A stretch of 43,344 nucleotides of DNA from assembly GCA_946611195.1 (NCBI GenBank), contig CAMODB010000007.1, positions 1 through 43,344 on the forward strand. The letters run 5' to 3'. Below are positions 19,748 through 43,344 of this stretch, piece by piece. The translations under genes were made by a program, and so were the position numbers. The stretch comes from an uncultured Bacillota bacterium (lineage in GTDB: Bacteria; Bacillota_I; Bacilli_A; ML615J-28; CAG-313). Numbering within the stretch: position 1 is the stretch's first letter; every line of letters starts with the position of its first letter. Below the pieces are notes generated by a model, which ran no database searches, had not been told where the DNA came from, and saw only the letters and a program-made list of their open reading frames with translations.

Positions 19748-19773
19748 AACAACTATATTAAAATATAGTTGTT
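19748..19773 (-). terminator. Hairpin terminator after the histidine kinase gene
   Basis: AACAACTATAT/ATATAGTTGTT forms an 11-bp stem with a 4-base loop, followed on the minus strand by seven Ts. It ends the long murI-pgs-two-component transcript. Confidence 0.85.
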
Positions 19774-21506
19774 TAATTATTCAATTCAATGCTAAAGCTT
19801 GATCCTGAATCTATTTTACTTTCGACATTTATTTTAGCATTTAAGATATTACAAATTTGTTTAACTAAATTTAAACCAATTCCAGTTCCACTTGTTTTAC
19901 TATTATGACTTTCATCAATTCGGTAAAAACGTTCAAAGATCTTATCTAACATCTTTTCTTCCATACCAATACCAGTATCGACAAATGATAAAACGGTTCC
20001 TTTATTATTTCTATAAGTACTGATAGTTATCGAACCTTTATTTTTATTATATTTAACCGCATTAACTAATAAATTACGAATAATTTCTTTAATAAGAATT
20101 TCATTACTAGTAATATGAATTATATCTAATTTTAAATCAATATTTAATTGCATTTTCTCAATTGGTTCTCTAAGATTTGCTAATTCTTCATTAATTAGTA
20201 ATTCTAAATCCACATCTTGATTTAAATCAAAACTTTCTTTACGATTTTCAATATTAGTTAAAAGTAATAATTGATCAATGGTATCTTTCATTTTAATCGA
20301 TTCATTGTGAATGATATTTAAGAAATTAATATCTTGTTCACTATATGATTCTGATGATGATAATAATAATTCACTAAAGCCACTAATGGATGTAATCGGT
20401 GTTTTAAGTTCATGAGAAGCATTTGCGATAAACTCGCTCTTATTTTTCTCTTCTAATCTTTCTTTGGTTACATCACTTAATTTAATTAAATAAATTCTTT
20501 TAGTATCACTGAATTCATTCCATGGATTGTCAAAAGCATCAATCGTTACATAGAATATTTTACCAAGTTCATTGATTTTAACATCAAAATAGATATTTTC
20601 ATTATTTTCTATCGCATAATCGATTTTTTCTAAAATGATTTTTTCATAATTTAAATTATGAATATTTAATGAAATAACATCTTCATTTACTTTAGCAATT
20701 CTTTTTGCGTAATTATTGATTAAGATTATATTGCCTTTATTACTAAGCACTAAGAAACCTTGATCCATATTATTAATTAAGAATTGTAATTTTTCACTAT
20801 CATCCTTAATGGTTTTAAGAGATGTATAGATATTATTACTAATTACGTTAATTTCTTTAATAGCTTCCGCAACTTCTTTATAACGATGAACAGTATCTAT
20901 TTCTTCATATTTTCCTTCATTTACAAGTTTTAAATTACTAGAAACACTATTAAAAGCATCAACAATATTTTGAGTCGTTTTTCTTGTAAAAATTAAACTT
21001 AAAAAGACGACGATTATCGCAACCACAAAGACAAAGAATAAAGATTCTAAAATTCCTAAATTATTATCGGCAATCATAATCGATGTTCGAACAATAATAT
21101 CATCATTCAATTTTGTAATATAGAATAATTCATTATCTTTATTATAAAGATGTTTATTCTTAACATCAATTTCATTTGCTCTATTCAATTCATCACTCGA
21201 TAAATTCGGAAAATAATTATCACCAACACTATCATTACTACTATCTATTAAGATATTACCATGGGAATTGGCAACCACAATAGTTAACCATTGTTGATTC
21301 TTCGTTAGATTTTTAACAACAGTTTGTAATTCTGTTTCATTAGTCGTCTCACTAATTTGTTCATTTACAACTACCGAAATATTGACTAATTCATTTTGCA
21401 TATTATTTCTCGTAAAATGATTCCAAATAAGTGATGAAGCTAATGAAAAGATTAATAACGCAATAATAACAATTAAAACATTTCGCCGAATTAATTCATC
21501 ACGCAT
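19773..21506 (-). CDS. Sensor histidine kinase, PhoR-like
   Basis: This is a 577-residue membrane kinase. One membrane helix lies near residues 8-28, an extracytoplasmic sensing region spans about 30-150, and a second helix lies near 152-174. A HAMP-like linker and a PAS-like segment (FLINNMDQGFLVLSNKGNI, near 242) follow. The H box has the phospho-His365 (NASHELKTPITSISG). The ATP domain has the N box NLLVNAVKYN, the G1 box VDTGIGM, the F box FERFYRID and the G2 box GTGIGLNLV. It follows the response regulator gene by 8 bases. It is the last gene of the transcript that also carries pgsB, pgsC and the mesaconase genes, so it probably senses an envelope or polymer-related signal. Confidence 0.94.
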   Translation of the reverse strand: MRDELIRRNVLIVIIALLIFSLASSLIWNHFTRNNMQNELVNISVVVNEQISETTNETELQTVVKNLTKNQQWLTIVVANSHGNILIDSSNDSVGDNYFPNLSSDELNRANEIDVKNKHLYNKDNELFYITKLNDDIIVRTSIMIADNNLGILESLFFVFVVAIIVVFLSLIFTRKTTQNIVDAFNSVSSNLKLVNEGKYEEIDTVHRYKEVAEAIKEINVISNNIYTSLKTIKDDSEKLQFLINNMDQGFLVLSNKGNIILINNYAKRIAKVNEDVISLNIHNLNYEKIILEKIDYAIENNENIYFDVKINELGKIFYVTIDAFDNPWNEFSDTKRIYLIKLSDVTKERLEEKNKSEFIANASHELKTPITSISGFSELLLSSSESYSEQDINFLNIIHNESIKMKDTIDQLLLLTNIENRKESFDLNQDVDLELLINEELANLREPIEKMQLNIDLKLDIIHITSNEILIKEIIRNLLVNAVKYNKNKGSITISTYRNNKGTVLSFVDTGIGMEEKMLDKIFERFYRIDESHNSKTSGTGIGLNLVKQICNILNAKINVESKIDSGSSFSIELNN

Positions 21507-21514
21507 TTTATTAC

Positions 21515-22198
21515 CTATTCTCTAACAATAAAACCAACACCACGAACTGTTTCAATATACTCATCAGGAGTGAATTTCGCTATTTTTTCTCTTAAAGTTT
21601 TAATATGCATATCAAGTGTTCTCGTCTCAGTTTCTGGTCCAAAGCCCCATATATTTTTAAATAGCTTGGTTCTTGTAACCACAATTGATGGTGTTTCAAA
21701 TAACATACAAAGAATTTCATATTCTTTGGCCGTAATGTCTTTAATAACACTATCTTTATATAGAACTAGATGTTTCTGTGTATCAACAGTCAAATCACGA
21801 ATAACTAATAATTTTCCTTCATGCATATTGACTTTTCTTAAATTTGCATTAATACGAGAAATAAATTCATTTAACTTAAATGGTTTAGTGATATAATCAC
21901 TTGCTCCCATATCAAGTCCTTTAACAATATCTTTTTCTTCAGATTTGGCGGACAGAATAATAATTGGAATATTTTCATATTCTTTCTTCTCTTTTAACAT
22001 TTTTAACAAATCAAAGCCATTAATCGAAGGTAACATTAAATCAAGAACAATTAAATCTGGTTTTTCTTTTGCAAGCTTACCAATAAAAGACATTGGTTCT
22101 AAGAATCCATGTTCTTCAAAACCATTCTTATCTAAGGTTGCGCCAATAAGAGTATTAATAGATTCATCATCTTCAACAAAATAAATTAATTTCCTCAT
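21515..22198 (-). CDS. OmpR/PhoB-family response regulator
   Basis: This is a 227-residue regulator. The receiver domain has the acidic pair VEDDE, phospho-acceptor Asp53 (IVLDLMLPS) and Lys in YITKPFK. The C-terminal winged helix is of OmpR type (ITAKEYEILCMLFE, TRTLDMHIKTLREKI, VRGVGFIV). I place the start at ATG 22198 because GGAGG lies 11 bases upstream and the ATG shares one base with the stop of the previous gene (TAATG). An ATG at 22216 would itself contain that ribosome site. It pairs with the adjacent kinase. Its position behind the pgs genes suggests that it controls them, but no binding site could be identified. Confidence 0.94.
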   Translation of the reverse strand: MRKLIYFVEDDESINTLIGATLDKNGFEEHGFLEPMSFIGKLAKEKPDLIVLDLMLPSINGFDLLKMLKEKKEYENIPIIILSAKSEEKDIVKGLDMGASDYITKPFKLNEFISRINANLRKVNMHEGKLLVIRDLTVDTQKHLVLYKDSVIKDITAKEYEILCMLFETPSIVVTRTKLFKNIWGFGPETETRTLDMHIKTLREKIAKFTPDEYIETVRGVGFIVRE

Positions 22199-23295
22199 TA
22201 TTTCTTTTTCCTCCAATTTATATATTTTTCTATTCCAAAATAGATAAAAATACCAGCTGATATTACGATTGCAATAATTGGTAAATCGAAGCGATATGAC
22301 ATTTGATAATACATGTCACCTTCACCAACTTCCGGAATTTCCATTGGATCATAGACTATACCATATTGGGTTGTTAAATATTTAATATTTAAGATTTGTA
22401 CAACTGGTACTCCAGCTTCTAAATAAGTATCTAATAACCCTATTTTATCGTAATTATCAATAATTTTTCGACTTAAATATGATGGTTTAATTAAGCCATA
22501 ACGATTACCAAAAGAATATTCATCACGTCCCATGGAAACAAGACTTCCACCAACATTGATAAATAATTTTAAATTAGGACATTTTTTCGCAATCAATTTC
22601 TTTCTTTCATCGATATTCTTTTTATAATCACTTTCTTCAAGAAAAGTAACATCTGAATCATTAATACGCTCAATAATAGGATTAATCGTTTCTAAATCAA
22701 AACTAGTTCTTGTATCATTACTTCCACCTAAAGAAACATAATCTAATTTAGAACTAAAGATTTTTTCTTTATAAAGATATTCAGCCATATCAAAATAAGT
22801 AAATTCTGGATTATTAGCACCAAAACTAGAAGCGCCAATGGAAGCCATATTACATACTTTTAGATTCATTACTTGACAAGCAGCTTGAACACAAATATTT
22901 AATGCTGGAAATGAACCTGAAGTAACAACTGCTACTTCATCTCCTTCTTTTATATTTGCTTCTCGAAAGAATTCAACAATTAAAGCAGCAAAATTAGGAT
23001 TACAAGAAGTTCTTTTTGCGTCAATTAAACCCGATGTCGTAGTAATTTCTGTATATCTTTCACCAATTAAACCACAATTATAAACATCAAAACTTGATAT
23101 AGCAATTCCATTATTAATTTTGTATTCTTTAATTTTGTCCATTGCTTTTTTTGCTAATTTCGTTGCTTCAATTTGTTCATCATAATAACTATTTTGTTCT
23201 TTCGTGGTAGTTTTAAAAGTAATAACAATCGATAATACTAATAATGATGCCCAGATAAGAAAAATTAAAGTACGATAACCTTGTTCTTTTTTCAT
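22198..23295 (-). CDS. Poly-gamma-glutamate system protein (PgsW-like)
   Basis: This is a 365-residue protein with one N-terminal membrane helix (residues 10-26) and one near the C-terminus (about 336-356), so the roughly 310-residue core faces outside. Core landmarks are VTSGSFPALNICVQAACQV, NMASIGASSFGANNPEFTYFDM and LGGSNDTR. I recognise this as the family called poly-gamma-glutamate system protein, which accompanies PgsB and PgsC in some anaerobes. Its biochemical role is not established. It starts 5 bases after pgsC and overlaps the response regulator by one base. The usual CapA/PgsA protein is not seen in the window. Confidence 0.75.
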   Translation of the reverse strand: MKKEQGYRTLIFLIWASLLVLSIVITFKTTTKEQNSYYDEQIEATKLAKKAMDKIKEYKINNGIAISSFDVYNCGLIGERYTEITTTSGLIDAKRTSCNPNFAALIVEFFREANIKEGDEVAVVTSGSFPALNICVQAACQVMNLKVCNMASIGASSFGANNPEFTYFDMAEYLYKEKIFSSKLDYVSLGGSNDTRTSFDLETINPIIERINDSDVTFLEESDYKKNIDERKKLIAKKCPNLKLFINVGGSLVSMGRDEYSFGNRYGLIKPSYLSRKIIDNYDKIGLLDTYLEAGVPVVQILNIKYLTTQYGIVYDPMEIPEVGEGDMYYQMSYRFDLPIIAIVISAGIFIYFGIEKYINWRKKK

Positions 23296-23300
23296 AAATA

Positions 23301-23750
23301 TTATAGTACTCCAATTTTATTAGCAAGGATTGCAAAAAGTTCAACAATACATACGACAATGACTAAAGCGGGAACAGTTCTTTTAATTCCTTGTTTATAG
23401 ATGTCATTCGCAATAAGACCACTTATTGTATAACCAATTATCGAAATATTTAATAAATTTAATGATAATCCTTTTAAGATAAGCTGCAAGACAGCATTTA
23501 AAATAAGACTTACAACAATCATTAAAACAAAACGTCTCTTACCATAAATTATTAAATATTTAGATAATAATTTAACAATAAAATAACAAATAATAGAAAC
23601 AATTACCGTATAAATCATTCTTTCTGGCTGTCTAATATAAAGAGCCATTAAACCAGGAACAATAATACCACCTGGTGAAATATTAGTAACTTCATAAAAA
23701 ATGATGCTGACTAAGACACCAAGTATAACAATATTTAAACTTAAATTCAT
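23301..23750 (-). CDS. pgsC: PgsC/CapC, poly-gamma-glutamate synthesis membrane subunit
   Basis: This is a 149-residue protein with about five hydrophobic segments spread over nearly its whole length. The N-terminal stretch FYEVTNISPGGIIVPGLMALY is the conserved PgsC/CapC motif. PgsC forms the membrane complex with the PgsB ligase and is needed for polymer synthesis. Its start overlaps the pgsB stop (ATGA-type, 4 bases), as expected for subunits made in equal amounts. The C-terminus (TVPALVIVVCIVELFAIL) also fits the family. Confidence 0.88.
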   Translation of the reverse strand: MNLSLNIVILGVLVSIIFYEVTNISPGGIIVPGLMALYIRQPERMIYTVIVSIICYFIVKLLSKYLIIYGKRRFVLMIVVSLILNAVLQLILKGLSLNLLNISIIGYTISGLIANDIYKQGIKRTVPALVIVVCIVELFAILANKIGVL

Positions 23751-24862
23751 AGCTTCTCACCATTTTCCTTAAAATAATCGAGGATTTTCATTCCTTGACC
23801 ACCAATATTTCCTACCGCAAAAATATATTGATCATTAAATAAATCATTAATATCATGATAATTAACAATTTCTAAATCAGGTCTTAATTTCTTTATTTTT
23901 TGCGTTACATAAGTTCTATTAGACCCCATGAGAATTAATTTCTTAATTTGATATTTTTGAATCATTTCGATATGTTGAATTACTCTCGTAGGTCTATCCG
24001 CACGATTATTTAAAAGGATAGTAATTTCTTCTTCTTTTAAATTCATATCCTTTTTTATACGATCAAAAACAACATTAATCGAAGTCGGATCATTAATAGA
24101 AAAACCATTATAAAGAATAGTATTACCAATTTGATAACTTTCAAAAGCACCTACATCATGATGATAAGTTTTTAAACCTTCATAAAATGCTTCTTGATTT
24201 AAACTTAAAGCTTCACATACGCCAAGTGCTAAAGAAATATTTTCTTCAAAAGTATCTAAATTAGGTCCGTTATATGGTTTAGCACAAATAACATTTGTTC
24301 CTTTTAATTTAGCTTTATCCGTAAAATATTTTTCATAATCACCAGGACCAATTACTAAAGTTCCATTAGTTGGAATTGTATTACTAAAAGCATTGGCAAT
24401 ATCATCTAAATCTTCACCCATATCATTTACATGATCTAAGCGCACATTTGTAATAACTGTTACATCAGCTTTTAAGATTTTTTCTTCACAAATCCTTTGT
24501 AATTCAGGATTAACAGCCATACATTCTAAGACAACAACTTCTGCCCCTTCTTTTTTAGCTAGTCGTAACATCTTTATTTGTTCTCTAATATTAGCTTTAC
24601 CAAGTCGTTTTATCACAACATCTTGATTATTAACATTAATATAAGTAGGAACAGTTCCAGTCGTTTTTGAAAAGACCTTGAAACCACAATTTCTGATCCC
24701 CGCATCAATTAATCTAGTAGTAGTACTTTTACCTCTAATACCATTAACATGAATAATATATTTAAAACTTTTCCGAATCTTGTCTAAAACAACTCTTTCA
24801 ATTATCACAAAGGATAAATAGCCAACAGCTAAAATAATAATAATTAATGCTAATCCGTCCAT
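23747..24862 (-). CDS. pgsB: PgsB/CapB, poly-gamma-glutamate synthase ATP-dependent ligase
   Basis: This is a 371-residue Mur-ligase-like amide ligase that joins glutamate units through the gamma-carboxyl. A membrane helix at residues 3-22 anchors it. The P-loop VNGIRGKSTTTRL lies at 39-51. Other Mur/CapB features are VVLECMAVNPELQ, VTNVRLDHVNDMG and LLNNRADRPTRV. The length matches CapB/PgsB. It lies between a lipoprotein gene and pgsC with overlaps of 1 and 4 bases. In capsule-forming species PgsB works with PgsC and PgsA. Here the third member is the PgsW-like protein instead. Confidence 0.92.
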   Translation of the reverse strand: MDGLALIIIILAVGYLSFVIIERVVLDKIRKSFKYIIHVNGIRGKSTTTRLIDAGIRNCGFKVFSKTTGTVPTYINVNNQDVVIKRLGKANIREQIKMLRLAKKEGAEVVVLECMAVNPELQRICEEKILKADVTVITNVRLDHVNDMGEDLDDIANAFSNTIPTNGTLVIGPGDYEKYFTDKAKLKGTNVICAKPYNGPNLDTFEENISLALGVCEALSLNQEAFYEGLKTYHHDVGAFESYQIGNTILYNGFSINDPTSINVVFDRIKKDMNLKEEEITILLNNRADRPTRVIQHIEMIQKYQIKKLILMGSNRTYVTQKIKKLRPDLEIVNYHDINDLFNDQYIFAVGNIGGQGMKILDYFKENGEKL

Positions 24863-25491
24863 TATTCAACCCCCAGCAATAATTTTAAAGGTTGTTCTAA
24901 AGAAACTGTACTACTAACTTCTAAACAAGGAATATGATTATCTTCACTAATATTTGATAAATAATGGTCTTGATTACCACTACTTACATATAAATTGAAG
25001 ATGGTTGATGAAAATACTTTTTCAATTAAACTATCGGATGTTGATCCTCGACGATTAATACCACCTAAATGAAAACCGATTAAAGAAATCTTCTTCTCAT
25101 TTTTTAATTTGATAAAATCATCAATTCTATTTTGTTCATCTAAAACTGTAATATCGCTTTCGGTTAAAGCTTTAATTGAACAGCCTACGAAAATAAAAAC
25201 TACTGAATTTTCTTCAACTGAACTAGCCTTAAGGGTCATATCGAATTCATAATCTAAATTATCATTGTATTTATAATCAAACATATACGCATCATTAGCT
25301 TGTCCAATCGAAGTAACATAAATTTTTTTATTCTTGATTAGACCTTTTGCTTCAGATGGAAAAGTAGTATGATCAATTATTTCTCTTTCAATTTCATTTT
25401 CTTTACAACTAAAACTAAAGAATAATAGTAATAAACAAAGAAATAAACTAAATCTTTTTATATTTTTTAATACCTTCATCAAATAAATCAT
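24862..25491 (-). CDS. Lipoprotein, paralogue of the one at 32448-33083, pgs-linked
   Basis: This is a protein of up to 209 residues with a lipoprotein signal (LFLCLLLLFFSFSC, lipid Cys29). The mature part matches the lipoprotein encoded at 32448-33083 in order: KKIYVTSIGQAND, LKASSVEENSVVFIFVG, then HLGGINRRGSTSD at 141-153, and a hydrophobic end LKLLLGVE. The repeated pattern IGQA...VFxxVG...HxGGxxRRGSxSD looks like a small alpha/beta domain. I believe it belongs to a DUF family found near pgs genes but cannot name it with certainty. The start is ambiguous: 25491 (44-base overlap with the mesaconase subunit) or 25479. It ends one base into pgsB. Confidence 0.75.
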   Translation of the reverse strand: MIYLMKVLKNIKRFSLFLCLLLLFFSFSCKENEIEREIIDHTTFPSEAKGLIKNKKIYVTSIGQANDAYMFDYKYNDNLDYEFDMTLKASSVEENSVVFIFVGCSIKALTESDITVLDEQNRIDDFIKLKNEKKISLIGFHLGGINRRGSTSDSLIEKVFSSTIFNLYVSSGNQDHYLSNISEDNHIPCLEVSSTVSLEQPLKLLLGVE

Positions 25492-26005
25492 TTCCTACTG
25501 TATCATATGTAACAATACCAAAGAAACCTTTTACTTCTAAACGGTAAATAGCTTCTGCTCCTAAATCTTCATAACAAATTAAATCACATTTAGTTACGGA
25601 TTCTGATATAGCAGCGGCAGCACCACCAATAGCTGATAAATAAACGGCATGATATTGTTTTAATAATTCTCTTAATTCTTTACTACGAGGACCTTTACCA
25701 ATCATCACTTTTAAACCTTGTTTTAATAATGGTTCAACAAAAGGATCCATACGATAACTTGAAGTTGGTCCACAAGAGCCGATTGCTCTACCAGGTTTAG
25801 CAGGTGTAGGTCCAACATAATAAATACCACCGCCATTAACATCAATAGGTAATGGTTGATTATTCTTTAATAATTCTACTAATCTCTTATGAGCAGCATC
25901 ACGACCAGTATAAATAACTCCCGTTAATTCTACTTTATCACCAGCTCTTAAGCTATCAATTACTTCTTGCGATAAAGGTAATGTTAATCTTTTAATTTCA
26001 TCCAT
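25448..26005 (-). CDS. Class I fumarase/mesaconase, beta subunit
   Basis: This is a 185-residue C-terminal-type subunit of the two-subunit iron-sulfur hydratases. Family landmarks are GDKVELTGVIYTGRDAAHKR, GGGIYYVGPTPAKPG, GSCGPTSSYRMDPF and GKGPRS near the middle, and AIGGAAAAI. With the alpha subunit 12 bases upstream it forms a fumarase or mesaconase. The same fold also serves L-tartrate dehydratase. The neighbouring methylaspartate ammonia-lyase and acyl-lyase genes argue for mesaconate hydration to citramalate. Its last 15-odd codons overlap the following lipoprotein gene in another frame. Confidence 0.9.
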   Translation of the reverse strand: MDEIKRLTLPLSQEVIDSLRAGDKVELTGVIYTGRDAAHKRLVELLKNNQPLPIDVNGGGIYYVGPTPAKPGRAIGSCGPTSSYRMDPFVEPLLKQGLKVMIGKGPRSKELRELLKQYHAVYLSAIGGAAAAISESVTKCDLICYEDLGAEAIYRLEVKGFFGIVTYDTVGNDLFDEGIKKYKKI

Positions 26006-26017: not shown

Positions 26018-26857
26018 CTATAATATACAAGACTTATGTCTTGCAGCATGACATTGAATATTTATTGCAACAGGAAGTGATGCAATATGACATGGGTAAG
26101 CATTAATTTTAACTGCTAAGCATGTTACACTTCCACCAAAGCCCATTGGGCCAACCCCTAATTTATTAATTTCTTCATATAATTCTTTTTCAAGATTAGC
26201 TAAAATTGGATCAGGGTTAACATCATCAATTTCCCGCATTAAGCTTTCTTTTGCAAGTAAAGCACTCTTTTCTAAATTACCACCTAGACCAATACCAACA
26301 ATTACTGGTGGACATGGTTTACCTCCACCATTAAAGACAGTATCAAGAACTAATTTTTTAACACCTTCAACACCATCAGCAGGAATTAACATCTTAACTA
26401 AACTCATGTTTTCACTTCCACCACCTTTAGGTGCTACTTCAATCTTAACTTTATCACCGGGAACTAATTTTACATGAACAATCGCTGGGGTATTATTTTT
26501 AGTATTAACACGGTCAAGAGGATGACGAACAACACTCTTTCTTAAATAGCCACCAACATAAGCTTTTTCTACACCACGATTGATAGCTTCATATAAGTCA
26601 CCATCAAAATGAACATCATAACCAACTTCGACAAAACATACTACTACCCCTGTATCTTGACAAATAGGTAAATGTTTTTCTCTAGCTAATAAATCATTAT
26701 CAATAATTCTTTGAATTACTTCTTGTCCTAAAGAACTTTCTTCTTCCTCTTTGGCTCTTCTTAAACGGCATAAAACATTTTCTGGAATGTTTTCACAGGC
26801 ATCAAGAAGCATTTGTTCTACTTTTTCTTCAATTAAACTTACTTTTATTTCACGCAT
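26018..26857 (-). CDS. Class I fumarase/mesaconase, alpha subunit
   Basis: This is a 279-residue subunit that carries the 4Fe-4S cluster. The three expected ligands are Cys66 (LPICQDTG), Cys182 (GGKPCPPVIVG) and Cys269 (INIQCHAARH). Other motifs are APKGGGSENMS and GPMGFGGSVT. The family covers fumarate, mesaconate and tartrate hydratases, which cannot be separated by motif. The genomic link to methylaspartate ammonia-lyase and citramalate-lyase-type genes favours mesaconase, the third step of the methylaspartate route. The ATG shares a base with the murI stop (TAATG), so the genes are coupled. The oxygen-labile cluster fits an anaerobe. Confidence 0.92.
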   Translation of the reverse strand: MREIKVSLIEEKVEQMLLDACENIPENVLCRLRRAKEEEESSLGQEVIQRIIDNDLLAREKHLPICQDTGVVVCFVEVGYDVHFDGDLYEAINRGVEKAYVGGYLRKSVVRHPLDRVNTKNNTPAIVHVKLVPGDKVKIEVAPKGGGSENMSLVKMLIPADGVEGVKKLVLDTVFNGGGKPCPPVIVGIGLGGNLEKSALLAKESLMREIDDVNPDPILANLEKELYEEINKLGVGPMGFGGSVTCLAVKINAYPCHIASLPVAINIQCHAARHKSCIL

Positions 26858-27678: not shown

Positions 27679-27713
27679 GATGCCATGTATGTCATATAAA
27701 CATACATGGCATC
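27679..27713 (-). terminator. 13-bp hairpin between the large lipoprotein gene and murI
   Basis: GATGCCATGTATG (27679-27691) pairs perfectly with CATACATGGCATC (27701-27713) around a 9-base loop. On the minus strand TATTTTTAT follows. It can end the long upstream transcript. Since murI starts only about 30 bases later, it may instead act as an attenuator or a 5' leader hairpin. Confidence 0.75.
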
Positions 27714-34497: not shown

Positions 34498-34656
34498 CTA
34501 CTTTATTAAGAATAGTCTTAAGACTAAAACTACTAACATTAAGGCAGCAGTTATTTTTTCATAAATATTCTTTGTTTTATAACCATGCCAGCCAACAAAG
34601 ACAATTAAAATAGCTACCATAGTAAGATAAATAATTCTTAAAATTAATTGAAACAT
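34498..34656 (-). CDS. 52-residue membrane protein beside the TRAP-type permease
   Basis: This short gene fills the space between the permease and the hydrolase. It starts at ATG 34656 and ends with TAG at 34500-34498, directly against the next gene's ATG. The peptide begins MFQLILRIIYLTMVAILIVF, continues with a short polar loop (GWHGYKTKNIYEK), and ends with a second hydrophobic stretch, giving two membrane helices. A TRAP small subunit (DctQ) has four helices and about 160 residues, so this is much shorter. It may be a reduced or unrelated accessory subunit of the permease. An AGGAGG site about 10 bases upstream supports translation. Confidence 0.6.
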   Translation of the reverse strand: MFQLILRIIYLTMVAILIVFVGWHGYKTKNIYEKITAALMLVVLVLRLFLIK

Positions 34657-34668: not shown

Positions 34669-36318
34669 CTATTCTGGCCAATGTACTGCTACGAACATTA
34701 TAAATAACAATGCGTATGCAAGTGTTACTATAAGAGGAACTAAAGCAGTCTTGGTAATATGAATATATTTAATTTCTTCTTTTGGTTGACTAACTTCTGG
34801 TTGACTAACTTCTTCTCGTGATAACTTGATATCTAATTCTTCACTATCTTCTTTTATAGTTTCATCTGGAAGAGCTTTTACATCTAAGGCTTCGTTAACA
34901 GTCTTAGCCGCAAAAGTAGCAGACATTGCAGTTGGTGGTAAGAATTCACCAATAGCAGCTACAAGTGATAAAGCTGATGAAACAATAATTTCATTATAAC
35001 CAATTAAAGCCATAACGAATGGACCACCAAGAATTGAAGCGGAACCAAAGGCTGATATACCACCAAAGATTGGAACAGCAATCGCAATACTAATATATTG
35101 CCATAAATAACGCCATTGATTAGCCATACTTGTCATTGGTAAACTTAATGCATTAATAACAAAATATCCACGAGCACCTGTTAAAGTTAAAGCTTCAACA
35201 AACATACCAACACCTATAAGTAAAGCCATAGCAGAAATAGATTTTGCAATACCATCACTTACAACTTTAAAGGCATTAACTTTTCGACCAACAAAGAGAC
35301 TTGGAATGAAAGCAATCACAAATAGTAATGGACTTCCAAGTAAACCAACGGAACGTGGTAGGACGCTTTGAAGAACAAACAAGATAATAATGATAAATAA
35401 AGGTGCTAAAACATAAGGTTTTAATTCACTTGTTATTTCTAAATTTAATGAATCAGCTAATTCTTCGACTATAATCTCTTCACAATATGGTTTTCTTAAC
35501 CATACAGCTAAAATAGAACCAATAACTAAGGCTGTAAAGAGAATAAATAATACTAATAATAATTTTTTATTACTAGCTTCTTTTGGTGAAGATAGATAAA
35601 GGATTAAGAATGTTAAAGAAACAAGTAATAAAATTGAAGATAAAACAATATTTTCAATTAAAGTATTCTTATTCATTCCAATTCTCTTTGGAGCTTCTTT
35701 ACCGAAGCCTCTACTTAACCATAGTACAACAAAGATAGCAAGTGGGAACGTTAAACAAATTAAAGGAGCAGTAAATCCTGAATATGGAATATCTACTACA
35801 TCACAAATAACCATTACGGGAACGTTAATTGGTGGAGCTATCATACCAAGGACAGCACCAAACGCAATAATTGCCCCAACTTTTTTCTTAGGAATACCCA
35901 TTTTTATCATGATAGGCGCAACAATTGCTCCACATGAAACAATAGCTGCTAATGATGAACCAGTAATCATACCTGGTAACATCACTAGTAACATAAATAC
36001 TAATAAGAGAACAGTAGGTGCTTTCTTAAATATTTTTACTAAAAACACACTAATGTATTCAATAGCTCCCGAAGCTTTAAGCCCCGCAATAAAGATCATT
36101 GCGGTAATGATAACTAAAATTGTATCAAAATAGCCAAAACTTCCTTCAATAAGATGTCGTAAATTCCATTCAGTTCCTGAGAAGATTGCTCCTAGTGTAA
36201 TACCAACTACGGCAGAACACATTAAGGCTAGTCCGCTAGGCATTTTTGCAACAAGTAGTAAAACTACGAATGTTACAATCATGGCAGCGAAATACAATAA
36301 TTCAATCTCCCAAATCAT
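34669..36318 (-). CDS. TRAP-type transporter large permease (DctM-like)
   Basis: This is a 549-residue membrane protein with about 13 hydrophobic segments. The DctM signature is clear near residues 115-200: GSSLAAIVSCGAIVAPIMIK, GAVLGMIAPPINVPVMV and PYSGFTAPL. The second half repeats the fold (GISAFGSASILGGPFVM, IGEFLPPTAMSATFAA). It is about 120 residues longer than a standard DctM. The extra length is a mid-protein insert with hydrophobic segments near 220-320 and a charged C-terminal tail ending in one more helix. No solute-binding protein or DctQ is encoded beside it. It lies 3 bases after the gamma-glutamyltranspeptidase gene. Import of glutamate or short glutamyl peptides is an inference. 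Confidence 0.82.
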   Translation of the reverse strand: MIWEIELLYFAAMIVTFVVLLLVAKMPSGLALMCSAVVGITLGAIFSGTEWNLRHLIEGSFGYFDTILVIITAMIFIAGLKASGAIEYISVFLVKIFKKAPTVLLLVFMLLVMLPGMITGSSLAAIVSCGAIVAPIMIKMGIPKKKVGAIIAFGAVLGMIAPPINVPVMVICDVVDIPYSGFTAPLICLTFPLAIFVVLWLSRGFGKEAPKRIGMNKNTLIENIVLSSILLLVSLTFLILYLSSPKEASNKKLLLVLFILFTALVIGSILAVWLRKPYCEEIIVEELADSLNLEITSELKPYVLAPLFIIIILFVLQSVLPRSVGLLGSPLLFVIAFIPSLFVGRKVNAFKVVSDGIAKSISAMALLIGVGMFVEALTLTGARGYFVINALSLPMTSMANQWRYLWQYISIAIAVPIFGGISAFGSASILGGPFVMALIGYNEIIVSSALSLVAAIGEFLPPTAMSATFAAKTVNEALDVKALPDETIKEDSEELDIKLSREEVSQPEVSQPKEEIKYIHITKTALVPLIVTLAYALLFIMFVAVHWPE

Positions 36319-36321: not shown

Positions 36322-38193
36322 TTAATATCCTAGAGCCTTTCCATCACGTCTAGGGTCTGCACCACCGTGCATTGTACCTTCTTCAAAATTGAATCTAATA
36401 CCATGAACACCACCAAAGAATAGATCATGATCTTTTACACCTGTAGGGATTAAATAATAACCCATAGCAGTTAATTGATCTCTTGTTGCTTGTGGTAAGG
36501 CATTTTCAATATATAAGTCTTTCATATGAGAACCTGCACCTAAATCGGCATTAGCAGATGCATAACAATAAACACGTGTTGCGTTAATTGCTTCTTGAAT
36601 ATTCATACCAAAGTCAATCATATTAATAACAGTTTGAATAACAGCTGAAGGAATACGTAAACCACCTGGAGAACCTAATGTTGCCCATGGGTTAGCATCT
36701 TTCATAATGATTGTTGGCATAATATGAGAAACTGGTTGTTTATAAGGTTTAACATAATGAACACTTGAAGAACTTACAGAGAAACTACTCATTTGGTTAT
36801 TTAAATAGAAACCGCATTGATGTGGAACAATACCATTACCAAAGAAATGGTTAATAGTTTGTGTTACACTTACGATATTTCCATCTTTATCACAAACAGA
36901 GAAAGCGGTAGTACTATAATGTTCAATATAATCATAAGTATCATCATCAATTAGATGATCACCAGTTTTAGGCATATAATCCCAAGGATTACCATAATCA
37001 TCAGCAGTTGAACCACCAATAGCATGACGTCCTAAATATGCATGAGTAGGGTTATAACGAGATGCCCATAATGCAGCAGCATATTTTTTCGAAATCATAC
37101 CTTGAAGAGGAACATCTTCAAAATTAAAGTCTGCGAAGTATTTTCTCTTATCACCATAAGCAGCAGAGAAAGCAGTTGCTAAAATATTTAAGAATTCAGC
37201 TGAATAACGATCAAGTTTTGAAATATCGCCATAGCATTCAAGCATATTTAAAGCTTCAAGAAGAATTGCACCACCACTTGATGGGCTAGTAGCTGTTGCG
37301 ATATCATAACCACGGTAAGTACCTTGAAGTGGTTTAGATTTAACAGGATAATTAGCTACAGCATAATCTAAATCAGCTTGAGTAATTAAACCACCATATT
37401 TTTCTTGTTCAGCTAAAATTGCTTCGGCTACTCTTCCTTTATAGAAACCATCTTTACCTTGGTTACAAATTAATTCAAGAACATCAGCATAATCAGATTG
37501 AACTAATTTATCACCAACAGCTAATGGTTCAATACCATCAGATGTGAAAACATTTTGAATTTCTTTTCTACTCTTCATTACTTGAGCAAAGTTTTCACTA
37601 ATAGTATTAGCAAGTTCTGGTGTTGTAGCAACACCTTCACGAGCATATTTAATAGCAGGTGCCATGATAGTAGCTCTATCTAGTTTACATCTTTCATCAA
37701 TGATTGTAAGTAAACCAGCAACTTGAGTAGGTACACCACTTGATTTAATTCCATCGTCTAAATCTTCATCACCCTTAGGGAAATTAGCAGCTGTACCAGA
37801 AGCAGGTGTGAATTCACGGAAATTGTATTGAACATATTCACCAGTGCTTGCATCGTAAGCGACCATTAAGCCACCACCACCGATACCACTAGCATGAGGT
37901 TCTACAACCCCTAATGCAAATGATACTGCAACAGCTGCATCAAAGGCATTACCTCCTGCTTTAAGGATATCAAGACCAGCTTTTGCTGCGTATGGACTTG
38001 CACAAGTTACCATACCATTTTTGCCTATTGCATCTCTAACGCTTAAGTCAGTATAATCTCCTTCTTCATCTGTTTTTTCACCTGGCTTTGGATCAGGATT
38101 GTCTTCATTCTTTTTACAAGAAACAAGTCCTGCTACACTTAAGAAAAAGATTAACGCAATTAGAAATACACCAAATCTAAAAGTTTTTCTCAT
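36322..38193 (-). CDS. ggt: Gamma-glutamyltranspeptidase lipoprotein (GGT/CapD family)
   Basis: This is a 623-residue lipoprotein: signal ending LVSC (Cys26), a charged linker to about 48, then the Ntn-hydrolase precursor. The large-subunit part carries Arg126 in NFREFTP, which binds the gamma-glutamyl carboxylate. Self-cleavage is expected before Thr428 in HYSTTAFSV, which becomes the N-terminal nucleophile of the small subunit. The oxyanion loop is LGSPGGLRIP near 507-516. GGT transfers or hydrolyses gamma-glutamyl groups. CapD, a relative, cuts and anchors poly-gamma-glutamate. Which of the two this is cannot be decided by motif, but the pgs genes in the same island favour a polymer-related role. 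GGAGG precedes the start. Confidence 0.93.
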   Translation of the reverse strand: MRKTFRFGVFLIALIFFLSVAGLVSCKKNEDNPDPKPGEKTDEEGDYTDLSVRDAIGKNGMVTCASPYAAKAGLDILKAGGNAFDAAVAVSFALGVVEPHASGIGGGGLMVAYDASTGEYVQYNFREFTPASGTAANFPKGDEDLDDGIKSSGVPTQVAGLLTIIDERCKLDRATIMAPAIKYAREGVATTPELANTISENFAQVMKSRKEIQNVFTSDGIEPLAVGDKLVQSDYADVLELICNQGKDGFYKGRVAEAILAEQEKYGGLITQADLDYAVANYPVKSKPLQGTYRGYDIATATSPSSGGAILLEALNMLECYGDISKLDRYSAEFLNILATAFSAAYGDKRKYFADFNFEDVPLQGMISKKYAAALWASRYNPTHAYLGRHAIGGSTADDYGNPWDYMPKTGDHLIDDDTYDYIEHYSTTAFSVCDKDGNIVSVTQTINHFFGNGIVPHQCGFYLNNQMSSFSVSSSSVHYVKPYKQPVSHIMPTIIMKDANPWATLGSPGGLRIPSAVIQTVINMIDFGMNIQEAINATRVYCYASANADLGAGSHMKDLYIENALPQATRDQLTAMGYYLIPTGVKDHDLFFGGVHGIRFNFEEGTMHGGADPRRDGKALGY

Positions 38194-38240
38194 TTTTTTC
38201 CTCCATTTTTCTTTTATATTCCCTTTACCCCTTTTTATAA

Positions 38241-39476
38241 TTAATAAAGATTATCTTTAATATTCTTTAAAAAGATTGTAACAATCAGTAAATCAGCACA
38301 TCCACCAAAACTATAATTATTAGCTATACACTCATTAGATAATTTATTGATTGATTCACTATTATAATTAAGATTTTGAAATTTGTTTTTTACTTCTAAA
38401 TATTTATTTAGTGAATGACATCTTTTTAAAAATACTGTATCATCAGCATTAATAATAAAGTAAATTAAAGTTTTTAATTTATCTTTTTTGACATCATAAA
38501 GGCTTAATGCTTCTGTAACGTGAGGTAATCCTCTTTCTATTTCTCCTCTTGCCCCCTCAATACCATATTGTTGATATGCTATCTTGCCAAAAGTGTCATT
38601 TCCTTTATTAAGTTCTTTAGTTAGATCTTTACACATGATTTTTAGATTATTGAAAATTTCCTCAAAATCTAAATTATTTTGTAAATTATAGCCAAGAGCG
38701 CCTAAGGTTTGACCTAGAAGAAAAATTAATCCTTTATAAGTATTTACATTGTTTGTTACTTTTAACATCTTCTTTTCAGTTAAAAGTCCAATTCTTCGAT
38801 TTTCGATAAATATTTCTTTTAAATCATTTAAATAATAACCATTAAAGAACATCATAATTAAATCATCAACAATCGCTTTTTGACTTCTTTTCATGATTTC
38901 ATAATTCATATCAGCATGCGATCCATTAGTTAATTTAGTTACTAGTCCAAATTTAGGATCTAAATCTAATTCTTCCATCATAGAAGAAAGAATTAATTTC
39001 TTGATTAATTTCTTTAAATAATCTTCAATATTCTTTTTAATAAATGATAACAATTCTATTAAAGAATGATTCTTTTGTCTTATACAGACAAAAGCATCTA
39101 AATCACATAAATAGCATTTTCGTAATGTAGGGCGATTAATGCTTCTAATAAAATCGCTTTCATTTTGAAATAAATCGAAATCGATAAAACGTCCTAACGT
39201 CTTATCTTCATATTTCATTAATTCATCTTTGGTAATTCTTCCTTTTTGGTATAAATATAAATACATTGGACCATCCGCATTATCTATATAAATAAATGAA
39301 ACATAATTCTTTTTAAGTTTATTATGAAATATATTTATTAATAGATATGCTTCTTTAATTTGTTTATTATTACCAGGAATATTAGCTTTTAAAGTAACAC
39401 AATCATAAAAAGGTAAATAATCTTTTATAAGATTTATTTTATTTTCTCTTTCTGTTAATATTTCACTAAATTCCAT
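38241..39476 (-). CDS. citXG: CitX-CitG fusion: prosthetic-group synthesis and transfer for acyl-carrier lyase
   Basis: This is a 411-residue bifunctional protein. The N-terminal 170 residues are CitX-like, the enzyme that attaches the phosphoribosyl-dephospho-CoA group to the carrier subunit; motifs are LGRFIDFDLF near 93 and RKCYLCDLDAFVCIRQ near 119. The rest is CitG-like, triphosphoribosyl-dephospho-CoA synthase, with TNGSHADMNY, GARGEIERGLPHV, NADDTVFLKR and SFGGCADLL. Such fusions are known in citrate lyase clusters. The gene overlaps citC by 11 bases. It equips the carrier protein encoded at 42839-43105. Confidence 0.9.
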   Translation of the reverse strand: MEFSEILTERENKINLIKDYLPFYDCVTLKANIPGNNKQIKEAYLLINIFHNKLKKNYVSFIYIDNADGPMYLYLYQKGRITKDELMKYEDKTLGRFIDFDLFQNESDFIRSINRPTLRKCYLCDLDAFVCIRQKNHSLIELLSFIKKNIEDYLKKLIKKLILSSMMEELDLDPKFGLVTKLTNGSHADMNYEIMKRSQKAIVDDLIMMFFNGYYLNDLKEIFIENRRIGLLTEKKMLKVTNNVNTYKGLIFLLGQTLGALGYNLQNNLDFEEIFNNLKIMCKDLTKELNKGNDTFGKIAYQQYGIEGARGEIERGLPHVTEALSLYDVKKDKLKTLIYFIINADDTVFLKRCHSLNKYLEVKNKFQNLNYNSESINKLSNECIANNYSFGGCADLLIVTIFLKNIKDNLY

Positions 39477-40464
39477 ATTTATCTTTAACCATTAAACTAA
39501 AGAAAGTTTGATTACCTTTAGGAATATATTTTAATGCGGAATCTAAATCTTTATTTTCTAGATATTTACGAACCAAGGAAGCTGATACTACAACACCATC
39601 TTCCACATAACGTTCTACTTCAATAATATCTTCACCTAATTCTTCTTTTAAGACTTCATTATATTTAACCATCTTTTCTTTTGTTTCTTTACCAAGATAA
39701 CGTTTTTTAAAATGAATTATTTTCTTAAAATAATTTTTATATACTAAAGCATCAATACGTGCTAATTCTGTATCAACACTATCACTAGGCAAGAAATAGG
39801 AAGGGAAAGTTAAAGATGAAACGATATATTTTGATGAAGGTATTACCGCAACATTCTCTAATCTTTTACAAGCAAGATATACTAAAGTTAATCTTTCTTG
39901 AAAACTAAATATTGATTTATCTTCTTCTACGACAAAGACTACTACTTGATCATGATTTTTACTAGCCGTTTCAATTAAATATTCATGGCCAGTTGTCATC
40001 GGATTTGCGTTAACAATGACACAGGCAATATCACTATTTTCTTCAATAGGACCAAGATAAAATTCTAATTTTCTTTTAATCTTTTTGATTTCTTCTTCTA
40101 TTTTGTCATTACCGCCTTCTAAAAAAACCACTTTATCATCTTTGACAATTAAACGAAAGCCAAAAGATAAAAAGATATTTTGATACATTGGTTTTGTAAA
40201 GACAAAATAAGAATAGATATTTTTTTCATTTAAACGACTAATTAATTCATTTATAAGTAAAGTAGCAGCATTTTCACTTTGATAAAGAGGGTCTACCGCA
40301 AGGCATTTAATGATATTACCTAAATAGCTTATAGTTCCAACAATTTTATCATCATCTTCTAAATATAAACTACCTTCTACTTCATCCATCTTTAAAGAAA
40401 ATTTAGTTAAAAATTCTTTAATTTGTTGTTTTTCACCTTGTAGTAAAGCCTCTTTAACAATCAT
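39466..40464 (-). CDS. citC: Citrate/citramalate lyase ligase (acetylates the lyase prosthetic group)
   Basis: This is a 332-residue enzyme that uses ATP and acetate to acetylate the thiol of the lyase carrier protein. The N-terminal 115 residues are a GNAT-like domain (LAVDPLYQSENAATLLI). The C-terminal nucleotidyltransferase domain starts with VNANPMTTGHEYLIE at 151-165, the HxGH-like ATP site, and ends with a SLVRKYLE region typical of the family. It lies between citF and the citXG fusion. The citrate and citramalate lyase versions cannot be separated by motif, and the neighbouring methylaspartate ammonia-lyase suggests citramalate. Confidence 0.92.
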   Translation of the reverse strand: MIVKEALLQGEKQQIKEFLTKFSLKMDEVEGSLYLEDDDKIVGTISYLGNIIKCLAVDPLYQSENAATLLINELISRLNEKNIYSYFVFTKPMYQNIFLSFGFRLIVKDDKVVFLEGGNDKIEEEIKKIKRKLEFYLGPIEENSDIACVIVNANPMTTGHEYLIETASKNHDQVVVFVVEEDKSIFSFQERLTLVYLACKRLENVAVIPSSKYIVSSLTFPSYFLPSDSVDTELARIDALVYKNYFKKIIHFKKRYLGKETKEKMVKYNEVLKEELGEDIIEVERYVEDGVVVSASLVRKYLENKDLDSALKYIPKGNQTFFSLMVKDKYGI

Positions 40465-40474
40465 TATTTAACTC

Positions 40475-41995
40475 CTATTTACGGTACAAAGAATCAATAA
40501 CTGTACCATCACGATATTCAACAACCCCAATTACTTCTTTTGATAAATTTAATTTCTTTGGTTCACCCGTAATAGAATGAGCTAGTTCATATAATTCATC
40601 AATTGTTTTAATTGGTAATTTTGAATTCTTTAATTTTTCAAGTAGATCTTTTCTCTTTGGATTGATTGCAATACCTCTTTCACATACTAAGATATCGATA
40701 TCTTCACCAGGAGTTGTTACTGTTGTAACATGATCTTTAATAATTGGCATTCTTGATTTAATTAAATTAGTAGTAATTATTGATACTTTTGCACCATGTG
40801 CAGTATCAGAATGTCCACCAGAACCACCAATAATCTTTCCATAAGAATCAGTAGTTACATTGACATTGAAATCTTTATCAATTTCCGTAGCACCTAAAAT
40901 TACTACATCAAGGTAATCAACAACTGGATCATCATAAGGATTAGCATATTTAGATGCTGACATACCAATATGATGAGGATTATTATTATAACTTTCTACC
41001 GCATCAATATCGAAACATTGAACATCGCGAAGTTCATCAAATAAGCCTTTTTTTTGCATATCAACGAAATAGCCAGTAATACCACCAGATGCAAAGCTAC
41101 CTTTTATACCTTTTTCCAGCATAATATTTTTTACATAGCTTGCCACAGCTAAACTTGTACCACCAGCACCAGTTTGCATTGACATACCATCTTTAATTAA
41201 ACCAATTTCATCAAGTAATTTAGCAGTCATATTAGCAATTTTTAAGCCAATTGGATCTTTAGTAATTTTAGTTGTTCCACTAACAATACCTTTAGGATCA
41301 CCAATAGAATCAACTACTAAGACAACATCTACATATTTCTTATCAAGTTCAATTCTATCTAATGAATCAACAAGATTATCAGTAACTAAAACTACTTTTT
41401 TCGCATACATTAAGTCGCTTATCGCATAGCCTAAGCTACCACAAGCAGCTTTACCAATACCACCATAACCATTACCATTTTTATCAACCGTAGGGGTTGC
41501 GATAAAAGCTACATCAATTGGTAATTCACCACTTTCAATTTTACGAGGACGACCACCATGCGTATTCATTACTAACATACCTTTTAAATAACCTTCACCG
41601 ATTACATCTGATACAGGACCATTTAAATAATTGGTATCGACATTAGTAACATTACCATTCTTAATTAAATCTGCTAATATAGCATTACTTGGGAAAATTG
41701 CACTTGGAGCATAATGAAGATCTTTTAAATCTCTTCTTAATACTTCTTGTGAAACCATATTTTGAACATAATCACCATTTCTTAAATGATGATGGAATGA
41801 AATTGTTTGTCCAGATTGAATATTTAAATAATCAAATACTTCTTTAATATCTTTTAGGAAAACAATTTTATTATTTTGTTTCTTTTCCTTGATTAATTTT
41901 CTTTCTTTATTTTGATAATCAGAACTAGAAACAAAAGGTCTATAGCCTTCAGGTACGAAACGATTTACTTTATTATTCATCTTAAATAGCTCCAA
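40475..41995 (-). CDS. citF: Citrate/citramalate lyase alpha subunit (acyl-carrier transferase)
   Basis: This is a 506-residue subunit that swaps acetyl for citryl or citramalyl on the carrier protein, a CoA-transferase-like reaction. Landmarks are FVPEGYRPF near the N-terminus, SFHHHLRNGDYVQN, GMSMQTGAGGTSLAVA, GASGGITGYF-like ASGGITGYFVD, and GGSGGHSDTAHGAK near 390. The length matches CitF. It overlaps citE by 14 bases and precedes citC. With CitE and CitD it forms the lyase complex in the cytoplasm. With methylaspartate ammonia-lyase and mesaconase in the same island the natural substrate is probably (S)-citramalate rather than citrate. Confidence 0.93.
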   Translation of the reverse strand: MELFKMNNKVNRFVPEGYRPFVSSSDYQNKERKLIKEKKQNNKIVFLKDIKEVFDYLNIQSGQTISFHHHLRNGDYVQNMVSQEVLRRDLKDLHYAPSAIFPSNAILADLIKNGNVTNVDTNYLNGPVSDVIGEGYLKGMLVMNTHGGRPRKIESGELPIDVAFIATPTVDKNGNGYGGIGKAACGSLGYAISDLMYAKKVVLVTDNLVDSLDRIELDKKYVDVVLVVDSIGDPKGIVSGTTKITKDPIGLKIANMTAKLLDEIGLIKDGMSMQTGAGGTSLAVASYVKNIMLEKGIKGSFASGGITGYFVDMQKKGLFDELRDVQCFDIDAVESYNNNPHHIGMSASKYANPYDDPVVDYLDVVILGATEIDKDFNVNVTTDSYGKIIGGSGGHSDTAHGAKVSIITTNLIKSRMPIIKDHVTTVTTPGEDIDILVCERGIAINPKRKDLLEKLKNSKLPIKTIDELYELAHSITGEPKKLNLSKEVIGVVEYRDGTVIDSLYRK

Positions 41996-42839
41996 ACTTC
42001 TCGGCTTTCATTAATATTTTTTCTGCTCTTTCCATAACTGGTTTATCAACCATCTTACCATCTAAACTAAATACACCTAAGCCTTTTTCACTAGCTTCTT
42101 TGGTTGCTTGACGAACACGTAAAGCCCAAGTAATTTGTTTTTCAGTTGGTAAGAAGACTTTATTAATTGTATCTAATTGATTAGGATGAATAGCACTCTT
42201 CGCATTCATACCAAGTTCTTGAGCATGTAAAGCATCTTTTAAAAGTCCTTCATAATCATTTACATCGGTAAATGGGGTGTCGATAGCATCAATTTGATAT
42301 GCTTTACAAGCCATAGCTATTCTAGCTCTTGGATATTCAATTTCCACACCAGCTTTAGTTCTTGTAACTTCCATATCTGATGTTAAATCTTCTGCCCCAA
42401 GCAATACGCCATCAACTCTTGGACATTTAACAATTTCTTCAACTTCAAGAACGGATACCGCAAGTTCAATAATAGGTAGAACTTTAATATGCTTCTTCAT
42501 CTTCTTTTCTTTTTCAATTTTTGTAAGCATTTCATCTAATTGATTTAAATAAACTACTCTAGCTTTAGGAAGCATAATGGAATCAATATTATCGGAAACA
42601 ATTAATTCAAGATCTTTTTGATAATAATCAGTATCTAAACCATTAATTCTAACAACTACTTCCATTGGTTGATTAGGATGAGTTTCTAAATAACAATGCA
42701 TCAAGTTACGAGCACTATCTTTTTGTAGAACATTTACCGCATCTTCTAAATCAAAGATAACCGCATCTGAACCAAAAACATCAGCATTTTGTAACATAGC
42801 TGGATTATTACCAGGAATAAATAATAAACTACGACGCAT
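41982..42839 (-). CDS. citE: Citrate/citramalate lyase beta subunit (acyl lyase)
   Basis: This is a 285-residue TIM-barrel lyase subunit that splits the acyl-carrier thioester into acetyl-carrier and an oxo acid (oxaloacetate from citryl, pyruvate from citramalyl). Motifs are RRSLLFIPGNNPAML at the start, VIFDLEDAV near 27, MLPKAR with metal-site residues, LLGAEDLTSDM, and KSAIHPNQLD. Length and motifs match CitE. It overlaps citD by one base at its start and citF by 14 bases at its end. Homologues also act on malyl-CoA, but the CitD and CitF partners here settle the complex type. Confidence 0.94.
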   Translation of the reverse strand: MRRSLLFIPGNNPAMLQNADVFGSDAVIFDLEDAVNVLQKDSARNLMHCYLETHPNQPMEVVVRINGLDTDYYQKDLELIVSDNIDSIMLPKARVVYLNQLDEMLTKIEKEKKMKKHIKVLPIIELAVSVLEVEEIVKCPRVDGVLLGAEDLTSDMEVTRTKAGVEIEYPRARIAMACKAYQIDAIDTPFTDVNDYEGLLKDALHAQELGMNAKSAIHPNQLDTINKVFLPTEKQITWALRVRQATKEASEKGLGVFSLDGKMVDKPVMERAEKILMKAEKFGAI

Positions 42840-43105
42840 TATTTAGCCTCCATTCTTTCAATGGCAGTAAGTAGTCTAGCTTTAATTGTATAATCGAGAG
42901 CTCCTTTATCTTGAAGGGAAACTTTAACATTATTTAATCCTTTTTCTTTTAAAGTATCAAGTACTACTTTTTCAATTTGATCATGGAAAAAGGCATCAAC
43001 AATACTTTGAATTTCCACTTCCAAATGATCGGATGCGCTAATAGTGACTAGACAGTCATTAGATTCAACACTACCAGCGCTTCCAATTTTTTGGATATCA
43101 CTCAT
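42839..43105 (-). CDS. citD: Citrate/citramalate lyase acyl carrier protein (gamma subunit)
   Basis: This is an 88-residue carrier protein. Near the N-terminus AGSVESNDCLV holds the Ser (residue 15) that receives the phosphoribosyl-dephospho-CoA group. The rest fits CitD (VQSIVDAFFH-like QSIVDAFFHDQI, DKGALDYTIKARLLTAIER). It lies 10 bases after methylaspartate ammonia-lyase and couples to citE. This spacing, with the ammonia-lyase directly in front, is the strongest local hint that the complex is a citramalate lyase. Confidence 0.93.
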   Translation of the reverse strand: MSDIQKIGSAGSVESNDCLVTISASDHLEVEIQSIVDAFFHDQIEKVVLDTLKEKGLNNVKVSLQDKGALDYTIKARLLTAIERMEAK

Positions 43106-43115
43106 ATTTTAATCC

Positions 43116-43344
43116 TTATTTATTACGGGAATTTGCAGCAGCAATTACACGATTCATTTCATTACGAACAATCATGTAACCTTCATCTACACCCATACCT
43201 GGTTTAGCTAAGCATTGATCAGCTTTACAAGCGATTGCGATATTAGTTGTTGTTTGAGCTGAAATATTAGTTTCGTTACATGTACCACCACAATAACTAC
43301 CAATACCTTTTTCATTACAATAAATAATAGCTTCAGCAACATTA
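43116..43344 (-). CDS. mal: Methylaspartate ammonia-lyase, C-terminal fragment (5' part outside window)
   Basis: The last 75 codons of a gene enter from the right edge and stop with TAA at 43118-43116. The peptide contains GGTCNETNISAQTTT, then KPGMGVDEGYMIVRNEMNRV near the end. From memory this matches the C-terminus of 3-methylaspartate ammonia-lyase, where the Thr-Cys of GGTCNET contacts the substrate. The enzyme removes ammonia from (2S,3S)-3-methylaspartate to give mesaconate, the second step of glutamate fermentation through methylaspartate. Glutamate mutase genes usually sit upstream and would lie beyond the window. Confidence 0.88.
   Translation of the reverse strand, partial: NVAEAIIYCNEKGIGSYCGGTCNETNISAQTTTNIAIACKADQCLAKPGMGVDEGYMIVRNEMNRVIAAANSRNK

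Follow-up and report, generated by a model that had tools for sequence, protein, structure and literature searches.

The window analysed here is a stretch of 43,344 nucleotides (nt) from an uncultured Bacillota bacterium (CAG-313; contig CAMODB010000007.1), whose source genome has a size of 0.98 Mb and is 65% complete. Using the open reading frames (ORFs) of the window and family profile searches, a run of 22 minus-strand genes was identified at positions 19773-43344, in which genes for the synthesis of poly-gamma-glutamate, its cleavage at the surface, uptake and the methylaspartate catabolism of glutamate lie together (Table 1). The intergenic gaps range between -44 and +47 nt throughout the run with the sole exception of 106 nt before murI, and the contig terminates within mal. 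This composition had been proposed in an initial annotation of the stretch, and all genes named there were recovered on the minus strand. One gene had been overlooked, which codes for a membrane protein of 52 amino acids (aa) and is preceded by a good ribosome binding site. The gene content, its contiguity and its recurrence are observed; what the enzymes do, which polymer is made, what is transported and how the run is regulated are deduced from families and gene context throughout.

Table 1. Features of the polyglutamate and fermentation gene run in the window.
Feature	Position	Strand	Evidence
Sensor histidine kinase (PhoR/PnpS-like), membrane anchored	19773..21506	-	NCBIfam PnpS 273 bits, under equivalog cut-off
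Response regulator (OmpR/PhoB-like)	21515..22216	-	Family match; adjoins kinase in relatives too
PgsW-type 'poly-gamma-glutamate system protein'	22198..23295	-	TIGR04332 324 bits, cut-off 100
PgsC, membrane subunit of poly-gamma-glutamate synthase	23301..23750	-	TIGR04011 122.6 bits, cut-off 96.45
PgsB, ATP-dependent gamma-glutamyl ligase	23747..24862	-	TIGR04012 322 bits, cut-off 222.7
DUF6305 lipoprotein b	24862..25491	-	PF19823 103.8 bits
Mesaconase/class I fumarase beta (MesB)	25448..26005	-	PRK06842 over cut-off; 89% identity in G001 (RUG293)
Mesaconase/class I fumarase alpha (MesA)	26018..26857	-	PRK06246 over cut-off
Glutamate racemase MurI	26857..27648	-	TIGR00067 212 bits, cut-off 147
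15-pair hairpin between 1261-aa lipoprotein gene and murI	27679..27713	-
1261-aa lipoprotein, Ig-like and OB-like domains	27755..31540	-	Lipobox FSCN; aBig_2 x2; weak OB-fold, ExeM/NucH-type matches
AstE1, AstE/AspA-type zinc hydrolase, lipoprotein	31586..32431	-	PF24827 over cut-off
DUF6305 lipoprotein a, candidate binding protein of permease	32448..33083	-	PF19823 111 bits
AstE2, AstE/AspA-type zinc hydrolase, N-terminal membrane anchor	33130..34497	-	PF24827 34 bits, cut-off 25
52-aa two-helix membrane protein, candidate small permease subunit	34498..34656	-	Position and motif kept in relatives
DctM/DcuC-like permease	34669..36318	-	PF06808 48.3 bits, cut-off 23.8
Gamma-glutamyltransferase (GGT), lipoprotein	36322..38193	-	TIGR00066 417 bits, cut-off 358
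CitX-CitG fusion, lyase prosthetic-group enzymes	38241..39476	-	TIGR03125 and TIGR03124 stretches in single ORF
CitC, lyase ligase	39466..40464	-	TIGR00124 216 bits; PF08218 over cut-off
CitF, citramalate/citrate lyase alpha	40475..41995	-	TIGR01584 526 bits, cut-off 501
CitE, citramalate/citrate lyase beta	41982..42839	-	TIGR01588 278 bits, under citrate lyase cut-off 443
CitD, lyase acyl carrier protein	42839..43105	-	TIGR01608 over cut-off
Methylaspartate ammonia-lyase, C-terminal 75 aa, truncated by contig end	43116..43344	-	PF07476 114 bits

The P-loop (GKS/T) and the TNxRxDHxxxMG-type motifs of PgsB are conserved among 67 homologues, and pgsC adjoins pgsB with an overlap of 4 nt. PgsBC would be expected to make gamma-linked polyglutamate in the hosts of the island. 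PgsW has two transmembrane helices either side of a domain of about 300 aa, for which AlphaFold gave a model with a predicted local distance difference test score (pLDDT) of 93.8; no fold in the PDB matched this model at E ≤ 0.001 using Foldseek.

For the surface hydrolases, the alignment of the GGT small chain starts at T428, the position of the catalytic threonine, and the lid-loop insertion is missing relative to E. coli GGT. The HxxE...NR...H motifs are conserved in AstE1, and the zinc and carboxylate-binding motifs of AstE2 are conserved in 37 sequences. It is known that GGT removes units from poly-gamma-glutamate and that an enzyme similar to zinc carboxypeptidases cleaves the polymer (PMC4497714).

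A 'TRAP-type permease' had been annotated next to these enzymes, of which the DctM/DcuC-like large permease was confirmed, whereas neither DctP nor DctQ adjoins it. In 38 of the 39 loci with both neighbours, a protein of about 50 aa with a C-terminal LRxLxxK-type motif is encoded between the permease and AstE2; for the 52-aa protein of the window no significant Pfam or NCBIfam match was obtained. In DUF6305, the residues K110, R125, H144, R150 and R151 (numbering of the window protein) are invariant or nearly invariant, which would fit the binding of a carboxylate. The DUF6305 lipoprotein, the 52-aa protein and the permease probably constitute a three-part uptake system. The AlphaFold model of DUF6305 (pLDDT 90) gave only weak Rossmann-like Foldseek matches, the single one under E 0.001 having a TM-score of 0.31. 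The folds thus gave no function for either DUF6305 or PgsW, neither of which has a clear relative among solved structures. DUF6305 is not mentioned in the open literature searched, and the name PgsW likewise gave nothing relevant there.

Within the fermentation genes, the set of CitDEF, CitC, CitX and CitG is complete in the window, and the neighbouring genes suggest citramalate rather than citrate as the substrate of the lyase. Both mesaconase subunits pass curated cut-offs (PRK06246, PRK06842), with mesaconate as the predicted substrate. Glutamate mutase had been predicted to adjoin mal, and it was found at the expected place in relatives: mal is full-length in two of them (G001 and G008, described below) and is directly followed by mutE-mutL-mutS.

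MurI, the sole copy found in the genome of the window, is part of the fermentation half, since it also adjoins mal-cit operons in genomes without PgsB. At eight such loci (L200, L202-L204, L206, L208, L210, L211), murI lies beside mut-mal-cit and several of the genomes lack wall genes; MurI would be a catabolic enzyme there. A cluster glmS-mutL-glmE-mal-mesAB-citDEF-citCXG-murI has already been published, as described in the relevant section and figure legend (Kronen and Berg, 2015; PMC4682846). MurI was considered as a sign of D-polymer synthesis, which was dropped on account of this published cluster and of its position next to mal-cit in genomes without PgsB and without a wall. The methylaspartate pathway was observed in genomes from goat cecum and rumen (G434, G001 and relatives of the window); a review, by contrast, associates this route with soil clostridia and regards the 2-hydroxyglutarate route as that of the gut (PMC8473912).

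Hairpins of unrelated sequence were found at the same site before murI in G008 and G434 (L032 ~13640-13740 and L188 ~1700-1760, respectively). The hairpin, which is strong in the window, may be a terminator, a processing site or a 5' stem-loop and may end a transcript, set expression levels or shield an end of the mRNA; two transcripts or a step in expression at this site are possible. As the Pgs side includes mesaconase and MurI, pathway genes are present on both sides of the hairpin, and the two parts do not simply correspond to synthesis and catabolism.

Taken together, the genes are most readily read as a polyglutamate turnover-and-fermentation island, and we consider it fairly probable that it serves a recoverable gamma-glutamyl coat, the glutamate of which is taken back and fermented. 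PgsB and PgsC, with PgsW replacing PgsA, would polymerise glutamate to a gamma-linked chain and hand it to the cell surface, where the externally tethered GGT and the two AstE/AspA-type zinc hydrolases would free glutamate or short gamma-glutamyl peptides. The products would be imported by the DUF6305 lipoprotein, the 52-aa membrane protein and the DctM-like permease. MurI would convert D-glutamate to L-glutamate, from which glutamate mutase, methylaspartate ammonia-lyase, mesaconase and citramalate lyase would yield ammonia, acetate and pyruvate. The two-component system is predicted to regulate the island.

The synteny is not confined to the window, and the mutase adjoins the island in relatives, so that two of the three outcomes named at the outset as refuting the proposal did not occur. 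The names of the comparison genomes are the labels of their submitters, and several are fragmentary metagenome-assembled genomes (MAGs). The whole island together with mutE-mutL-mutS lies on one contig in the Acholeplasmataceae bacterium AS08sgBPME_277 (G008), which belongs to the same family but another genus. Complete contiguous islands with glutamate mutase were also found in a Clostridia MAG from goat cecum (G434) and, without the mesaconase genes, in a Haloplasma-labelled MAG (G413). In RUG293 (G001), a member of the same genus, the island is split between one contig (mutS-mutL-mutE-mal-citD-citE-citF-citC-citXG-GGT-permease-AstE2-DUF6305) and another contig (murI-fumA-fumB-DUF6305-pgsB-pgsC-pgsW-response regulator-histidine kinase), with break points that match the gene order of the window. 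In G001, G008, G036, G024 and G434 the histidine kinase occupies the corresponding end of the island, and the 1261-aa lipoprotein is conserved among the islands. The MAG RUG293 is mixed, as several rpoB copies of different lineages were detected on its contigs C25, C29, C111 and C112.

In the PgsB tree, the sequences of the window, G001, G008, G024, G036, the Haloplasma MAG and two Clostridia MAGs form one clade (99/98), separate from PgsB of C. tetanomorphum and other Clostridia. RpoB places G434 firmly within the Clostridia and G413 with its own family; the other Clostridia MAG of the clade yielded no RpoB. Since the PgsB clade spans two classes while G434 is a member of the Clostridia by RpoB, the island was probably transferred: most simply, the union arose once and then moved between lineages, in which it was probably kept as a unit. 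Within the clade, the contig of a rumen Bacilli MAG (L091) carries the polymer module with no genes of the fermentation.

A chance merger of operons that are not functionally coupled would agree with the separate occurrence of the halves in many genomes. It would leave unexplained that they are contiguous in genera of two classes, and that polymer genes have been rejoined to a dedicated mutase copy in two genomes. A second mutS-mutE-mal lies directly before GGT-permease-AstE2-DUF6305-AstE1-lipoprotein in G033 (L220, G033:C38) and a second mutS-mutE directly before GGT-permease-AstE2 in G025 (L205, G025:C90), both without mutL; each genome also holds an ordinary mut-mal-cit operon. A polymer module with its own mutase copy argues that the released glutamate is destined for the methylaspartate pathway, and a chance merger is regarded as very improbable. 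Within the order, the association between MutE and PgsB (6 of 8 versus 13 of 35 genomes, p = 0.11) is not significant by itself; the argument for coupling rests on contiguity.

The polymer genes were also followed beyond the island. A PgsW scan of 84,980 species resulted in 87 places, of which 80 were kept. Among 36 PgsW loci with long flanks, PgsB was present in 32, DUF6305 in 24, the permease and AstE2 in 22 each and GGT in 14; the permease was found in all 22 AstE2 loci and DUF6305 in 21 of the 22 permease loci. These loci are spread over about nine phyla (Bacillota/Mycoplasmatota, Bacteroidota, Ignavibacteriota, Gemmatimonadota, Spirochaetota, Thermodesulfobacteriota, Latescibacterota, Aminicenantes and Fidelibacterota). 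By this distribution, PgsBCW with GGT, the putative zinc exohydrolases and the candidate importer is a module in its own right.

This linkage bears on the explanation that the salvage genes serve foreign gamma-glutamyl material, that the PgsBCW coat is not digested and that plentiful glutamate is the signal shared by both. Several distinct surface-anchored hydrolases and the origin of the relatives from rumen, gut and digesters would be in line with scavenging, and the hairpin before murI could divide the two uses. That the hydrolases, the permease and PgsBCW are linked in about nine phyla without fermentation suggests the same polymer as substrate, so that scavenging beside an undigested coat is unlikely, if still worth considering.

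The purpose of the polymer was approached from its energy balance. A ligase of the PgsB class consumes at least 1 ATP per bond. From the published balance of the pathway, in which 5 glutamate give 7 ion equivalents and 3 thioesters with 1 ATP per 4 ions (PMC8473912), a yield of ~4.75 ATP per 5 glutamate was computed, i.e., ~0.95 ATP per glutamate. This balance favours a recoverable coat over a fuel store. An energy and carbon reserve, made in glutamate excess and fermented in famine, had been suggested initially, and it would suit a run in which a two-component system accompanies the genes for both synthesis and fermentation; with this balance it is improbable.

Several results weigh against a recoverable coat that feeds the fermentation. 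MutE was not found with PF06368 in the 65%-complete assembly to which the window belongs, where the contig ends before the expected position of the mutase (a TIGR01503 search matched no control genome either and is hence uninformative). The Asp-Asp of the GGT substrate motif is replaced by SS in the window, a site that is variable in the family. This loss was also considered as a mark of an endo-acting GGT, which was dropped, as the site varies family-wide and C. tetanomorphum retains Asp-Asp. The polymer module appears to be independent of the methylaspartate fermentation, as MutE is missing from the majority of PgsW genomes outside the Bacillota: a match was obtained in 18 of the 41 PgsW genomes searched, and among the 17 over the cut-off only Acetomicrobium lies outside Bacillota/Mycoplasmatota. 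In C. tetanomorphum DSM 4474 the two halves are unlinked: one contig carries mutSLE-mal-fumAB-citDEF-citC-citXG, and a different one GGT-DUF6305-permease-AstE2-AstE1-PgsBCW. Finally, PgsA is absent: neither G434 nor any of the eight genomes with PgsB in the order gave a PF09587 match. The synthase is hence a PgsBCW variant and not PgsBCA, and its activity is putative.

The missing PgsA, together with a PgsW that has no known fold relative and the membership of PgsB in the wider Mur/FolC ligase class, could also indicate another gamma-glutamyl conjugate as the product, e.g., on a surface protein or lipid, that is trimmed by GGT and AstE. PgsB and PgsC pass the equivalog cut-offs for the polymer synthase, which leaves such a conjugate little probability.

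If a polyglutamate coat is made, it could be connected to the loss of the cell wall in the host order. PF00905 and MraY are both absent from 7 of the 8 PgsB-bearing genomes compared to 11 of the 34 other genomes of the order (Fisher p = 0.013, not corrected for kinship), a count that includes the contaminated G001 and the incomplete G000; the link between PgsB and wall loss is suggestive only. In G001, the genes that come after rsmH are valS, folC and radC in place of wall genes. Transpeptidases are present in G008, G413 and G434, and wall loss is therefore not required. A replacement of the wall by the polymer is speculation. A wider proposal, namely that PgsBCW, GGT, AstE2, DUF6305, the ~50-aa protein and the permease serve to recycle polyglutamate generally, across about nine phyla, by means of a three-part importer of a new type, and that in wall-less Bacilli the polymer is in addition a wall-substituting coat, is tentative and rather doubtful as a whole. 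Beyond mutS in G008, genes resembling the GerA/B/C-type spore germination genes were read from the sequence (L033 13976-17884), pointing to a spore-forming organism close to the wall-less lineages.

The union of polyglutamate genes with methylaspartate fermentation was not found in the open papers searched. It connects a classical anaerobic fermentation with a surface polymer that has been known chiefly from Bacillus, and offers a concrete testable role for PgsW, DUF6305 and the ~50-aa membrane protein, all of which are without known function. As the polymer module is also present in C. tetanomorphum DSM 4474, the textbook example for the methylaspartate pathway, the idea is testable in a culture-collection strain. 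If wall-less Bacilli do wear a polyglutamate coat, the coat would represent a novel type of substitute for the wall.

The fermentation half consists of the same enzymes as the published cluster, including MurI, both subunits of mesaconase and the enzymes of lyase maturation. In the section and figure legend describing that cluster, no genes are named for a polyglutamate synthase, GGT, AstE or DUF6305, which are present in the island (Kronen and Berg, 2015; PMC4682846). The uptake genes share with the TRAP transporters (DctP-DctQ-DctM) the DctM-type large permease, an adjacent candidate binding lipoprotein and an adjacent small membrane protein. The island differs in having no neighbouring DctP/TAXI or DctQ protein; DUF6305 is the candidate for binding, and the 52-aa protein belongs to no known family. 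The poly-gamma-glutamate hydrolases PghP and YndL are, like AstE1 and AstE2, zinc enzymes related to carboxypeptidase A (PMC4497714), while the island proteins fall in the AstE/AspA catalytic family PF24827, for which cleavage of the polymer is putative. The Bacillus PgsBCA(E) and CapBCA(DE) systems, of which the B. subtilis synthase includes PgsA and PgsE (PMC4497714, PMC3815933), have PgsB, PgsC and a GGT-family enzyme acting on the polymer in common with the island. In place of PgsA the island has PgsW, and a permease, DUF6305, two AstE-type hydrolases and the fermentation genes are attached to it.

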